A DNA stretch of 32,074 nucleotides from Sporichthya brevicatena (GTDB lineage: Bacteria; Actinomycetota; Actinomycetes; Sporichthyales; Sporichthyaceae), in contig NZ_BAAAHE010000048.1 in NCBI RefSeq assembly GCF_039525035.1, forward strand, positions 1-32,074, read 5' to 3'. Shown here one piece after another: positions 3,200-21,940 of this stretch. The translations under genes and the position numbers were made by a program. The notes beneath the pieces were generated by a model. That model searched no databases, was not told where the DNA came from, and saw nothing but the letters and a program-made list of their open reading frames with translations. The first letter of the stretch is position 1. Every line of letters begins with the position of its first letter.

Positions 3200-4003
3200 T
3201 CACCCCGGCTGCTCGGCGGTCCAGATCAGGGCCGCGGCGAGGTAGCGGTAGGTCCACTCCTCCGCGAGTTTGCGGGTCTCGCAGAAGACGATCGGGACCT
3301 CGGGATAGCGCACCTGCAGCTCGGCGATCCCGTCGGCGACGACGGACGGCCGCTGGTGCGCCAGGGTGAAGATGCGGGAGTAGCGGTCCTCGACGACGAC
3401 CGCCGCGCGGGGAACGGCGGCCAGCTCGCCGAGTGCGAAGCGGAGCTTGCCGTTCATGACGCTGCTGACGAGGTCGTCGAGGGACTTGCGCTCCACCACC
3501 GCGAGCAGCTTGCCCTCGGCCTCGACGCCGTAGTCGCCGCAGGGCAGGGCGCGCTTGGTCGTCGTCACCTGCTGGTTCGCGAACTTGTAGGCGTACCGCT
3601 CGTGGGCGTCGACGACGATCTCCATCGTCGCGAGCCCCGCCGCCCGCGCGGTCGGGGTGCTGACGGCCGGCCGGGCCTGCTTGCGCGTCCGGGGCGACTG
3701 CCAGAAGACCATCTCCCGACCGCGGGCGCGGGTGAAGACGATCTGCGAGCGGGACTCCCGCGTCCGGTCGGCGACGACGTCGATCGCCGCGCCGCGGCGG
3801 GTGCAGGCGGTGAGCGGCACGGTCTCGACCAGGTCGGGCTCGGCCGGCCACTCCGCGAGCGGGACGGGATAGCAGAACAGCGCGTTCGTCCGCGGCCACG
3901 TGTCCTTCGTCCGGAAGACGAGATCCTCCCGACCGGCCGGGACGCGGATCAGGAACGGCAGCGAGCTGTCGGCGTCAGGGTTGCGCGCGATCAGCAGCTC
4001 CAC
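3200..4003 (-). CDS. ERCC4 (XPF-type) nuclease domain protein
   Basis: The C-terminal half of this 267-residue protein is an ERCC4 nuclease domain. The signature acidic and basic residues are visible: Asp132 in IVVDAHER, Asp147 in PCGDYGV, and Glu161-Arg162-Lys163 with Asp166/Asp167 in VVERKSLDDL. This corresponds to the GDx(n)ERKx3D core of the XPF/Mus81 nuclease family, so structure-specific DNA cleavage is likely. Residues 1-125 form a separate N-terminal domain that I do not recognise. There is no helicase and no obvious HhH2 domain, unlike archaeal or eukaryotic XPF. The GTG at 4003 is preceded by AGGAAGG. A perfect 20-bp palindrome starts 18 bases upstream. A role in DNA repair is inferred from the fold only. 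Confidence 0.88.
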   Translation of the reverse strand: MELLIARNPDADSSLPFLIRVPAGREDLVFRTKDTWPRTNALFCYPVPLAEWPAEPDLVETVPLTACTRRGAAIDVVADRTRESRSQIVFTRARGREMVFWQSPRTRKQARPAVSTPTARAAGLATMEIVVDAHERYAYKFANQQVTTTKRALPCGDYGVEAEGKLLAVVERKSLDDLVSSVMNGKLRFALGELAAVPRAAVVVEDRYSRIFTLAHQRPSVVADGIAELQVRYPEVPIVFCETRKLAEEWTYRYLAAALIWTAEQPG

Positions 4004-4021
4004 CCGCCCTTCCTACCGGAG

Positions 4022-4041
4022 AACGCTTCCGCGGAAGCGTT
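4022..4041. promoter_or_regulatory. Perfect 20-bp palindrome upstream of the ERCC4 gene
   Basis: AACGCTTCCG followed directly by its reverse complement CGGAAGCGTT forms an uninterrupted 20-bp palindrome. It lies between the divergent ERCC4 (start 4003) and PadR (start 4156) genes, close to the nuclease start. It does not match the actinobacterial SOS box (TCGAAC-N4-GTTCGA). A regulator site is the likeliest reading. The cognate protein is unknown. Confidence 0.5.
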
Positions 4042-4082
4042 TCGGCTCGCGGCGCCGTCGCTGTTCGGTGCGCCACACCACG

Positions 4083-4111
4083 TTGCATCGCGATACGTTT
4101 CGATATATCGT
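4083..4111 (+). promoter_or_regulatory. PadR promoter with CGATATATCG operator
   Basis: A 10-bp palindrome CGATATATCG (4101-4110) and a nearby ATCGCGAT (4087-4094) lie 46-69 bases before the padR-like start, in an AT-rich island. TTGCAT (4083-4088) and TATCGT (4106-4111), 17 bases apart, could be -35 and -10 elements overlapped by the operator. ATATCG-type palindromes are known autoregulatory sites of PadR-family repressors, so self-repression is likely. The exact promoter call is tentative. Confidence 0.6.
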
Positions 4112-4155
4112 GACTGCATCGACCCCAGGGAGGGGTCGGAACCAAGGAGAATCGA

Positions 4156-4818
4156 ATGCATGACTTCCACAACGGCCGTACCTACGGCCACCCGGGCCGG
4201 CGCTACCGCGCCGAAGACCCGTCCGAGCGCGGCTACGGCCGGCGCGGCGGCGGACGGGGCGGCATGAGCCCCCGCGGCCGCGACGGCGACTTCGAGCGGG
4301 GCGAACCCCGCGGGCGCCGGGGCGGACGACCCGATCTCGGACACCCGCACTTTCGCGGCCACCGCGGTCGCGCGCAGCGGGGCGACGTCCGCGCCGCGGT
4401 GCTCCGCCTCCTCGCCGAGCACTCGATGCACGGCTACCAGATGATGAATGCGATCGCCGAGCGCACCGGCGGCAGCTGGCGCGTCTCCCCCGGCGCGATC
4501 TACCCGACGATCGCCCAGCTCGAGGATGAGGGCCTCGTCCGCACCGAGGCCGAGGGTGGCCGCAAGCTCGTCGTCCTCACCGACGCCGGCCGCACCTACG
4601 TCGAGGACGAGACGACCGCCCCCGCCGACCCCTTCGCCGCCATGACCGACGAGAAGGGCACCGGCCTCCGCGACGTCTTCGAAGGCCTCGCCGTCGCCAG
4701 CAAGACCCTCGGCCGCACCGGCACCCCGACCCAGATCGCCGCCGCCCGCGAGGTCCTCGAGAAGGCCCGCCGCGACCTCTACCTGATCCTCGCCGACGAC
4801 CCCGGCGCGAAGGGCTGA
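4156..4818 (+). CDS. PadR family transcriptional regulator
   Basis: This is a 220-residue protein. The PadR winged helix covers about residues 74-145: RGDVRAAVLRLLAEHSMHGYQMM, then SPGAIYPTIAQLEDEGLVRTE and GRKLVVLTDAGRTYVED, the canonical YxI/YPTL-type recognition and wing segments. The N-terminal 70 residues are a low-complexity Gly/Arg/His-rich tail found in many actinobacterial PadR proteins. The C-terminal helix (TQIAAAREVLEKARRDLY) is the short PadR-s2-like dimerisation element. The ATG at 4156 follows AAGGAGA with a 5-base spacer. PadR proteins are usually repressors of adjacent genes and of themselves; the CGATATATCG palindrome upstream supports this. No transporter lies next to it, so its target beyond itself is unclear. 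Confidence 0.92.
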   Translation: MHDFHNGRTYGHPGRRYRAEDPSERGYGRRGGGRGGMSPRGRDGDFERGEPRGRRGGRPDLGHPHFRGHRGRAQRGDVRAAVLRLLAEHSMHGYQMMNAIAERTGGSWRVSPGAIYPTIAQLEDEGLVRTEAEGGRKLVVLTDAGRTYVEDETTAPADPFAAMTDEKGTGLRDVFEGLAVASKTLGRTGTPTQIAAAREVLEKARRDLYLILADDPGAKG

Positions 4819-4839
4819 CCCCAGCCCTCGCCCGCCCCA

Positions 4840-5127
4840 CTTCACCAGCCGCCCCGCGCACTTCACCAGCCGCCCCGCGCACTTCACCAGCCAGGACCTC
4901 GCTTCACCAGCCAGGCAGGGCCGGTGAAGATGGCCTCGGCCAGTGAAGACGGGGAGCGGCGCCAGGCGCGAGGCGCGCCGACGTGCTCGCCAACCGGCCG
5001 AGCGGGCCTGGGACGAGGCTCCCCCACCCGTCCCGCCAGCTTCACCAGCCGGGACCACCTTCACCCGCCCCGCCCAGCGCGTGAAGAGCAGGCTCAGCCA
5101 GTGAAGCCGGCGGGGTGGCTGGTGAAG
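4840..5127. repeat. Phased array of 11 TTCACC(AGCC)/(GGCT)GGTGAA repeats
   Basis: Two clusters of a short motif, core CTTCACCAGCC, lie in the space between the convergent PadR and coiled-coil genes. Forward copies start at 4840, 4861, 4882, 4902, 5040 and 5059. Inverted copies (GTGAAG) lie at 4924, 4943, 5081, 5101 and 5122. Measured between motif centres, the steps are 21, 21, 20, 21 and 19 in the first cluster and 19, 21, 20 and 21 in the second, close to two helical turns. Each cluster runs forward copies then inverted copies; the outermost pair of the second cluster is a perfect 11-bp inverted repeat (5040-5050 with 5117-5127). The 90 bases between clusters show no copy. A multi-site protein-binding array, a set of nested RNA hairpins or a degenerated tandem duplication are all possible. 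Confidence 0.85.
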
Positions 5128-5232
5128 CGGCAGGCGGGGCGGCGGCGACGACGACGAGGCGCCCGGGCCCGGACGCGCGTCAGCCGGCGACCCAGGGAGG
5201 GGGGCCGCCGGCCGACCGGGATGGCTCAGGTT

Positions 5233-5272
5233 CTGGCCGGCCGCCCGGAGGGGGGCCCGGGCGGCCGGCCAG
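5233..5272 (-). terminator. Strong hairpin terminator of the coiled-coil gene
   Basis: A perfect 16-bp GC-rich stem (5233-5248 with 5257-5272) encloses an 8-base loop. It begins 3 bases beyond the stop codon of the minus-strand coiled-coil gene. No U-tract follows on either side. It separates that gene from the TTCACC array. Confidence 0.7.
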
Positions 5273-5275
5273 GGT

Positions 5276-7033
5276 CTACTTGTCCGCGGCGGTGTACTGG
5301 GCTCCGCCGAGGACGGCGGTGGTGACCGCGAACTGGGACCGGAGCTCGACGACCTGCTCCCGCATCCGCTCGATCTGAGCCTCCGCGGCGGTGACGCGGT
5401 CCGCGGACTTGACCAGTTCCGACTCCAGGCCCTTGGCGCGGGCCTCGGCGGCGCCGCGGGCGCGCTCGGCGAGAGCGAGCTTCGCGGCCATCTCCTCCAG
5501 CTTCGCGGCGAGGGCGTCCTTCTCACCGTCGACCGCGGCCTTGGCCTGGTCGGCGGTGTCGCGCTCGGCGGTGAGGAGCTCGATGCGCTCGCGGATCGCG
5601 GCCGCGGTCGCGGCGGACTCACGGGCGGCGGCGCCGGCCTCGGCCGCGGCGGCCTCGGCCTCCAGCGCGCGCTGCTTGAACTCGGCGATCGCCTTCTCCG
5701 CAGCCTCGCGGCGGGCGATCTCCGCGTTCAGGGCGGCCTCGGCGGCCGCGGACTCCTGGGCGTGGGCCGTCGCCGCGGCGAGGGTTTGCGCCCGGGCCGC
5801 GTCGACCTTCGACGCCGCGTCGGCGCGGGCCGCCTCGATCAGGCGGGCCGTCTCCATGCGGGCGCCCTCCATCTTCGCGGCGGCCTCCTTGCGGACCGCG
5901 TCGATCGCCGCGGCGGCCTCGGTGCGCGCCTTCTCGACGGTGCGAGCCGCCTCGGTGCGCACCTCCTCGGCGCGGGTCTCGGCGACCGACTTGGCCTGCT
6001 CGCTCGCGGCCACCGCGGCCTTGAGCTCGGAGATCTGGGCCAGCAGACGCTCGGCCTCGGCCTCGGCGGCCGCGGTCGAACGCTCGGCCTCGGACTTCTG
6101 CGCGGCGAGCTGCGCCGTCAGCGCCTCGACGCGGTGACGGGTCGACGCCAGCGACGCCGCCGAGCGACGCGCCTCGGCCTGAGACTCCGTCAGAGCAGCG
6201 GTCGCCTCGTCGGCACGGGCCTTGTCGGCGGCGGCAGCCTCGGTCGCCTTCACGCGACGCTCGACCTCGGCGAGACGCGCGGTCTCGGACGCCTTGCGCG
6301 CCGACTGCTCGGCGGCGAGGGCCTTCTCGGTCGCGTCGAGCCGGCCGGTGAGCTCCTCCACCGACTTCAGCGCCGCGACGAGCGCCTCGTTCTGCGCCGC
6401 GAACTCCTTCTGCATCGTGTCGCGCTCGGCGGACATCAGACGGACCGCGGCCTGGGCCTGCTCGACCTTCTCGGCCAGCGCGGCAGCCTGCGCCGCGGCC
6501 TCCACCGCGGCGGCGTCGGCCTGCGCGCGCTCGTTCTCGGCCTGCAGCTGCGCACGCTCGGCGCGGGCGACGCGGGCGTTCGCCTCGGCGACCTTCTCCG
6601 CGGCCTCGGCGGAGACCGCCTCCATCTGCGCGGCCACGGCCTCCGGGTCGGCGGTCTGCTTCAGCGCCTCGTTCAGCTCGCCGAACTGGCCGAGCAGGTG
6701 CTCGACCATCCCGACGACCTGACGACGGATCTCGGACGCACGCTCACGCGCGCTGTCGACGGGACGCTCGTCGATCGGGGCACCCGTCAGCTTCGACTTC
6801 AGCTCCTGGCGGGCCTTCCAGGCCGCGGCCGGGTTGTGCTCGGGGTCGCCGCAGTAGCGGGCCACCCCGTTGGCGCCGTCCGCGGCGCTCGGGACCGGGG
6901 TCCGCATGCAGTTCGGCATGGCGCAGGTGGGACGCGTCTGCGCCGGGACCGCCTCGGCGGCCACGGGACGGGCCGGCGTACGCGCGGCCCGGTTCAAAGG
7001 AGCGGAGCTGCGGGAGGTCGTCTGCTCGGTCAT
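5276..7033 (-). CDS. Long Ala/Glu-rich coiled-coil protein with N-terminal zinc-knuckle-like motif
   Basis: This is a 585-residue protein. Residues 37-66 hold Cys37-x4-Cys42-x18-Cys61-x4-His66 (CAMPNC ... YCGDPEH), a likely single zinc-binding knuckle. From about residue 95 to 575 the chain is almost uninterrupted Ala/Glu/Lys/Arg heptad-like sequence (for example EKVAEANARVARAERAQLQ), predicted to be a very long coiled coil. There is no signal peptide or membrane segment, so it is cytosolic. A zinc module plus long coiled coil recalls, in layout only, KfrA-type plasmid proteins and other nucleoid or cytoskeletal organisers; I cannot assign a family. The frame stays open to 7213, but codon use upstream of 7033 is less coding-like, and the start MTEQTTSRSS is preferred although its ribosome site is weak. 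The TTCACC array lies just downstream. Confidence 0.8.
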   Translation of the reverse strand: MTEQTTSRSSAPLNRAARTPARPVAAEAVPAQTRPTCAMPNCMRTPVPSAADGANGVARYCGDPEHNPAAAWKARQELKSKLTGAPIDERPVDSARERASEIRRQVVGMVEHLLGQFGELNEALKQTADPEAVAAQMEAVSAEAAEKVAEANARVARAERAQLQAENERAQADAAAVEAAAQAAALAEKVEQAQAAVRLMSAERDTMQKEFAAQNEALVAALKSVEELTGRLDATEKALAAEQSARKASETARLAEVERRVKATEAAAADKARADEATAALTESQAEARRSAASLASTRHRVEALTAQLAAQKSEAERSTAAAEAEAERLLAQISELKAAVAASEQAKSVAETRAEEVRTEAARTVEKARTEAAAAIDAVRKEAAAKMEGARMETARLIEAARADAASKVDAARAQTLAAATAHAQESAAAEAALNAEIARREAAEKAIAEFKQRALEAEAAAAEAGAAARESAATAAAIRERIELLTAERDTADQAKAAVDGEKDALAAKLEEMAAKLALAERARGAAEARAKGLESELVKSADRVTAAEAQIERMREQVVELRSQFAVTTAVLGGAQYTAADK

Positions 7034-7282
7034 GCGCTTGATCGTTCCGAAGTCGATCACCGGACGTGCCGGACATTGCGAATCCTTGAGAGCGGAGCAT
7101 TCGGACATCCGCGACATCCCCGGACGATCATGGTCATCTGACGAACCCTCAGTCGATCGCCGCAGCGCGGAGTCATGTCTCCTCCTCGGTGCGTTGCGTC
7201 GGCATTCAGACACCGACCGGAGCGGGTCTGTGACACCTCTCCCGAGCTACATTGGGGAAGCCGACGACGACGGAGGTCAGCC

Positions 7283-21891: not shown

Positions 21892-21940
21892 AAAAGGGTG
21901 ACACCCCTTACTTACGAGTAAGGGGTGTCACCCCTTTTTT
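21892..21940. terminator. Bidirectional nested-palindrome terminator
   Basis: Left arm 21892-21912 pairs with right arm 21917-21938 around a TACG loop, with one bulged base, then a run of T follows (21935-21940). Both arms are themselves near-palindromes (AGGGTG-A-CACCCCT and AAGGGGTG-T-CACCCCTT). Another small hairpin, AGGGGT-GAA-ACCCCT, precedes it at 21862-21876. The A-run at the left gives a T-run on the other strand, so it can stop both the FAD-Rieske transcript and the convergent alcohol dehydrogenase transcript. Confidence 0.85.

Follow-up and report, generated by a model that had tools for sequence, protein, structure and literature searches.

Phased CTTCAC arrays dispersed in Sporichthya and a candidate AbiEi-type nuclease encoded between like arrays

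The first 32,074 nucleotides of contig NZ_BAAAHE010000048.1 of Sporichthya brevicatena (assembly GCF_039525035.1, genome G000; hereafter the window) hold, at positions 4840-5127, an intergenic array of short repeats in two orientations. What is this array, and which protein might read it? The initial annotation had described eleven TTCACC-type repeats, six forward and five inverted in two clusters, with steps of 19-21 bp throughout, or about two helical turns. The layout was borne out, with the exact hexamer CTTCAC in 11/11 units. The 11-mer CTTCACCAGCC proposed as the core is exact in just 6/11 (five forward, one inverted), and the 19-21 bp spacing holds for the same-direction steps, both dyad steps being 22 bp. 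With up to two mismatches, CTTCACCAGCC has 34 matches in the window against a shuffle mean of 8.81 (100 shuffles, largest 16). The sites and elements are as follows:

4840, 4861, 4882, 4902, 5040 and 5059, plus strand: starts of the six forward CTTCAC hexamers
4924, 4943, 5081, 5101 and 5122: starts of the five inverted hexamers (GTGAAG, CTTCAC on the minus strand)
4840-4948: cluster 1, four forward units followed by two inverted ones, steps 21, 21, 20, 22 and 19 bp
4861-4948, plus strand: 88-bp five-site element within cluster 1, from the alignment (genome model match at 4873-4948)
5040-5127: cluster 2, two forward units followed by three inverted ones, steps 19, 22, 20 and 21 bp
5040-5127, minus strand: 88-bp five-site element of opposite polarity, from the alignment (model match over all 88 positions, E 2.3e-21, the element being in the model's training set)

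Our answer, held with slightly better than even confidence, is that the window array belongs to a dispersed intergenic element and is one of its solo copies, and that its CTTCAC words likely dock a nuclease of AbiEi type (by predicted fold) encoded elsewhere in the genome between like arrays. The two-turn spacing is indeed a genome-wide feature. In the 5.23-Mb G000 genome, CTTCACN{13,15}CTTCAC gave 28 + 23 matches, i.e. 51 pairs at 19-21 bp, against 3 + 0 for the reversed pattern, and CTTCACN{5,35}CTTCAC gave 54 + 47 against 7 + 5. The recurring five-site form is the 88-bp element A-21-B-20-C-22-D'-19-E', found in either polarity, whose invariant blocks in the alignment are the CTTCAC words. 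Among steps of up to 60 bp, same-direction steps measure 19-21 bp in 48/57 cases at G000 loci and in 83/102 at loci of a second Sporichthya species (G001). Mirrored steps measure 21-22 bp in 13/18 and 22/37 cases; the remainder are 41-42 bp, as if one site were missing. A sequence-only array model, whose counts include both strands of near-palindromes, matched 63 times in G000, 102 times in G001, four times in G002 (same genus as G000) and 0 and 1 times in two sister-genus genomes; it matched 36 times in G043, 12 times in G060 and 0 and 1 times in two other class members. The arrays in G001 are not significantly clustered on the chromosome (1449/5000, 21 loci). A phage origin was considered and dropped, the four-site pattern having 0 matches in viral contigs. 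A further dialect, CTTCCCTCG, occurs near CTTCAC arrays in L182, L186, L191 and L196, with steps of about 20 bp in L182 and L186 too, and L184:4359-4414 is a 25-bp tandem repeat that contains GTGAAG off the two-turn step.

The arrays are shared between the species, and their hexamers are kept. Over more than 1 kb, 14 of 17 G000 loci compared matched G001 loci at 89-95% mean DNA identity, and arrays are present in both species at 14/14; the other G000 loci are L173 and the probable coding hits L176 and L177. Arrays also stand at the start of G002 contig C57 and of a contig of a named Sporichthya metagenome-assembled genome (MAG). Fully identical between the species are 182/205 hexamers, against 580/1938 spacer six-mers. 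In eight simple spacers at seven loci, identity is 0.992 in the hexamer, 0.814 in the spacers and 0.908 in the flanks; there the third base past the hexamer (G) is 0.97 identical and the two bases preceding it 0.67-0.69. Local changes concern the copy number and polarity of clusters: the window array has two clusters in G000 and three at the matched G001 locus. Worn tandem copies had also been suggested at first, and in part this holds: some units repeat in tandem without change (e.g. 4840-4881), and L189 and L213 have long unit runs. As a full account, however, functionless repeats from slippage are very improbable, given that conservation is specific to the hexamer and that the same hexamer and step recur in other genera.

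In G001, a gene for a 319-residue AbiEi-type protein (L187:4258-5217) lies between two arrays of opposite polarity that directly adjoin it on both sides, one of them upstream. Both are of class I, the CTTCACC dialect, as distinct from class II, the CTTCACTCG dialect. Of the two arrays around the G000 orthologue (L165:4081-5040, 88% identical), one is complete, and of the other the contig end leaves just the start. Two class II arrays enclose a related gene, L292, whose orthologue is L293; the upstream array of L293 is partly N in the sequence, and the start of L292 is uncertain, its first start codon overlapping the upstream array. The L187 and L292 proteins are mutual best matches among 26 family proteins (41-43% identical), CTTCAC words occur at both genes, and the genome array model also matched beside a second AbiEi-type gene.

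The protein is predicted to fold into an AbiEi winged helix and a Vsr (very-short-patch-repair)/homing-endonuclease-like domain (residues 206-311), the latter with invariant acidic residues. PADLOC AbiEi models match it, and family proteins are named in their sources as AbiEi antitoxins or very-short-patch-repair endonucleases. NCBIfam gave no family for five proteins. Among solved structures, a search by sequence with L187 alone found no match, and the nuclease part has one weak match (3hrl, E 0.0085); plasmid relatives came to one weak match. Around arrays across genera, 809 proteins were called. Families present in at least two groups are for the most part common, and the majority do not adjoin arrays; the AbiEi-type family model matched L165 and L187 alone.

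Might the flanking arrays simply be autoregulatory operators of an AbiEi-type regulator, with the dispersed copies of other origin? AbiEi represses its own promoter via inverted repeats, according to PMC3985639, and one array is indeed upstream of the L187 gene. We consider this quite unlikely: arrays are also found downstream of the gene and at many loci without it, and the regulator half is fused to a nuclease-like domain that has invariant acidic residues.

Many other genes of this AbiEi/MTES_1575 family also lie between copies of a word of their own. In full 300-base flanks, a word of at least 14 bp is common to the upstream and downstream flank of 19/31 family genes, against 2/151 control genes (600-1500 bp genes in Sporichthya loci). 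The 14-bp cut-off was set alongside the first gene set and held for the second, in which 9/17 genes pass. The 31 genes are L187 and 30 of 43 listed family rows; left out were seven rows in helicase-size open reading frames (ORFs), five with a contig end less than 300 bases away and one not fetched. Thus GAAAGCGCA is found around L299/L302 and L300/L303, GGAGATGACATCTCC around L301, GGGGTGACACC around L297 and CATGGAGAAGGTCGGCTC around L298 in G060. Some of these words are dispersed as well. Across 56 stretches of Sporichthya DNA, 460,822 bases in all, CCGAAAGCGCA and GGAGATGACATCTCC occur away from their own genes in L174, L175, L190 and L216, and GGAGATGACATCTCC also in L166 and L188; three control words in reversed form gave counts of 1, 1 and 0. 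Lone copies of the L297 word AAGGGGTGACACC were seen off its gene at window position 21924 (minus strand), L169:6526 and L216:6834 (minus strand). In our best reading, each own-word gene and its repeat dialect form a unit resembling the repetitive extragenic palindromes (REPs) and their RAYT transposases, with a different enzyme, and the solo arrays are dispersed sites.

Would such sites act as double-stranded DNA or as RNA? RNA hairpins, raised as a possibility from the start, would make the arrays terminators or mRNA stabilisers at transcript 3' ends. Arrays mostly lie near stop codons, transcripts of the window clusters would fold, clusters scoring better than shuffled sequence (z -2.9 to -4.6), and the copy at L175:3966-4033 and L216:3963-4030 has a nearly perfect hairpin form. 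Covariation between the arms, however, was not seen in Sporichthya. Matching with the own arm was 0.644 against 0.630 with arms of other copies (717/2000 permutations as high) and 0.649 against 0.645 (880/2000); in Jiangella it was 0.548 against 0.578, and only Pseudonocardia CNS-004 showed a weak excess (0.658 against 0.606, 33/2000). On 23 elements, 75.7% of cells were paired against 75.9% in shuffles. In the alignment, outer units on one side of the element have no pairing partner, and some arrays lie between divergent genes. No terminator-like site (hairpin and T run) was found in window 4000-6000; Rfam gave three matches there, all far under the gathering score, and at seven array loci its sole match at that score was a thiamine pyrophosphate (TPP) riboswitch off the array (L210:358-450, minus strand, 67.5 bits). 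A maintained hairpin is disfavoured because the arms lack covariation, and this lack supports, from sequence comparison, double-stranded protein sites, of which it would be expected. RNA hairpins as the whole explanation have a rather small chance. Between the species, the hairpin-like copy at L175 and L216 differs in its left spacer and barely in its right arm.

The placement of the arrays would also fit another role. By our ORF caller, 4/121 arrays examined overlap an ORF by more than 30 bp. Spacers with arrays are convergent, divergent and codirectional in 42, 11 and 42 cases, against 41, 101 and 217 for spacers without arrays (orthologous Sporichthya loci counted twice), and in 33/42 codirectional spacers the array is closer to the upstream stop. 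The arrays might serve the host: a cooperative protein bound to them would mark gene ends as a boundary in both directions, with the AbiEi-type gene as a mere neighbour. This orientation bias and the hexamers kept between species speak for such a boundary, which we think unlikely. It leaves unexplained, however, why many family genes with unrelated words follow the own-word rule, and a similar gene-end placement is reported for REPs in PMC3733652.

Beyond Sporichthya, similar arrays were found in Pseudonocardia, Jiangella, a Nocardioidaceae MAG and Auraticoccus, and the bases after the hexamer vary by lineage. Among 84,980 species genomes scanned, 90 stretches came up; by title, 64 belong to Actinomycetota and 26 to other groups, and many of these 26 may be due to chance. 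Repeated matches came from Nocardioidaceae MGR_bin201 (23), Pseudonocardia CNS-004 (16), Auraticoccus cholistanensis (4) and Acidothermales bin_12 (3). The same-direction step is 19 bp in 41/45 cases in Jiangella and 20 bp in 34/36 in Pseudonocardia, 23/26 in the Nocardioidaceae MAG and 8/14 in Auraticoccus, figures that the search patterns partly fixed. The distribution is patchy, with the strict three-site pattern in 7/393 class genomes. These steps also bear on operators of a PhoP-type regulator, whose Streptomyces motif GTTCACC has TTCACC in common with the arrays (PMC4415409). There PHO boxes are 11-nt direct repeats, and none of the six sets counted has a same-direction step near 11 bp; this spacing contradicts the PhoP reading, which we regard as barely credible.

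As to mobility, all 14 compared Sporichthya loci are shared between the species, and Jiangella has one apparent empty site for a whole composite. The Jiangella arrays (L210:3640-4260, G060) are bordered by a further palindromic block, about 130-150 nt long and of high copy number. The L210 query had 16-159 matches in 10/11 genus members and 3 in the eleventh. In G143 (C38:49837-50481) a composite of about 700 bp is missing between the same flanks as at L210, an apparent empty site; there the matches to query positions 1-205 and 905-1301 are separated by about 55 bases, in a comparison that is only partly readable.

How could a solo array such as that of the window arise? Under the nuclease reading, the AbiEi half would read the word, with units bound on one face of the helix, as the arrays bracketing the gene and AbiEi biochemistry suggest. 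The predicted fold and the conserved residues point to a Vsr-like half that would cut or nick at arrays. The dispersal of the arrays suggests that repair or recombination would then copy them into new gaps, in the way proposed for REPs and their RAYT transposases. The arrays may later have taken on a role where genes end, e.g. as a block to read-through; such a role or continued binding would explain why arrays stay put with their hexamers kept.

Several observations weigh against this reading, beside the folding of the clusters and the Pseudonocardia arms. Binding, cutting and new insertion are all steps that we infer. By analogy with the Streptococcus agalactiae AbiEi, an antitoxin and autorepressor, the arrays beside the gene might be no more than operators. 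Part of the hexamer's conservation could be mimicked by recombination between copies that share it, steps are not clearly better retained in orthologues (45/59 in arrays against 830/1222 control intervals), and longer array steps have no special preference for 10.5 bp. The 31 genes of the own-word test include orthologues counted separately, and 12 of them fail it. Protein and word similarity are weakly linked (rho 0.13, 29/2000 permutations as high, 26 genes), a correlation that arises partly from homologous flanks. A cognate gene for the CTTCAC arrays of Jiangella or other genera was not found, and those Jiangella PF18741 genes that do have a flanking word have a different one. G002 keeps a class II array, and the five PF18741 genes detected there include no L292 orthologue.

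Which known systems come closest? REP/REPIN-RAYT systems, as described in PMC3733652, also have palindromes scattered through intergenic DNA close to the 3' ends of genes, and a gene of their own with copies of the repeat on either side; here that gene is from another enzyme family (19/31). In both, a lineage-specific sequence stands next to a short conserved tag. The GTAG or CGTC tag beside a stem was not seen, however, the array blocks being CTTCAC words; the units are direct half-sites two turns apart; a stem with kept pairing was not found, apart from the weak Pseudonocardia excess; and one Sporichthya genome carries several words. The Y1 transposase PF01797, considered as partner, was present in 0/11 genomes (5/14 control genomes positive), the enzyme here being a predicted AbiEi and Vsr-like nuclease. 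The layout thus resembles that of REP-RAYT, but the tag, transposase and pairing tests were negative and another enzyme is predicted. With the AbiEi antitoxins of type IV AbiE systems it shares the predicted winged helix, the PADLOC matches and the inverted repeats, which AbiEi is reported to bind (PMC3985639); the fused nuclease-like domain, the arrays on both sides of the gene and the dispersed solo arrays differ. Residues 206-311 resemble Vsr and I-Bth0305I-type homing endonucleases in modelled fold and invariant acidic residues, but are fused to an AbiEi-type half, with likely recognition arrays bracketing the gene. PHO boxes share the TTCACC core in direct repeats (PMC4415409), at 11 nt instead of 19-21, and the hairpin with T run of intrinsic terminators was not found in window 4000-6000.

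More broadly, and with somewhat less than even confidence, Actinobacteria may hold a whole class of unrecognised REP-like systems, in which many AbiEi-Vsr fusion nucleases cut and copy their own bracketing word, phased or palindromic. If so, one chromosome would carry several private repeat dialects, each with its writer. The present findings give an undescribed repeat family a candidate reader, and a simple rule, a gene between copies of its own word, predicts from sequence where each family member would bind. Proteins named after AbiEi or very-short-patch repair would gain a testable role, and REP-like systems a second type of enzyme. No description of such a system was found in open PubMed Central papers, subscription journals being outside this coverage.

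The array of the window is bordered by the following features:

4156-4818, plus strand: PadR-family regulator gene (PF03551, E 6.6e-17)
5233-5272, minus strand: perfect 16-bp G+C-rich hairpin at the 3' end of the coiled-coil ORF
5276-7213, minus strand: long ORF for a coiled-coil protein, running towards the array, of uncertain start (scored ORF 5276-6964), with no Pfam family

The coiled-coil protein, described in the initial annotation as having a zinc knuckle, had been put forward as a candidate reader; it is unsupported in this role because arrays lie at many loci beside unrelated genes, and it has no Pfam domain. The PadR protein was likewise rejected as a partner, its G002 orthologue having no array in the 3.3-kb locus examined; in the window, 21 bases separate the PadR stop (4818) from cluster 1. 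The hairpin at 5233-5272 is separate from the array and showed no T run in the terminator scan; it is conserved in G001, with a fold z of -6.3.
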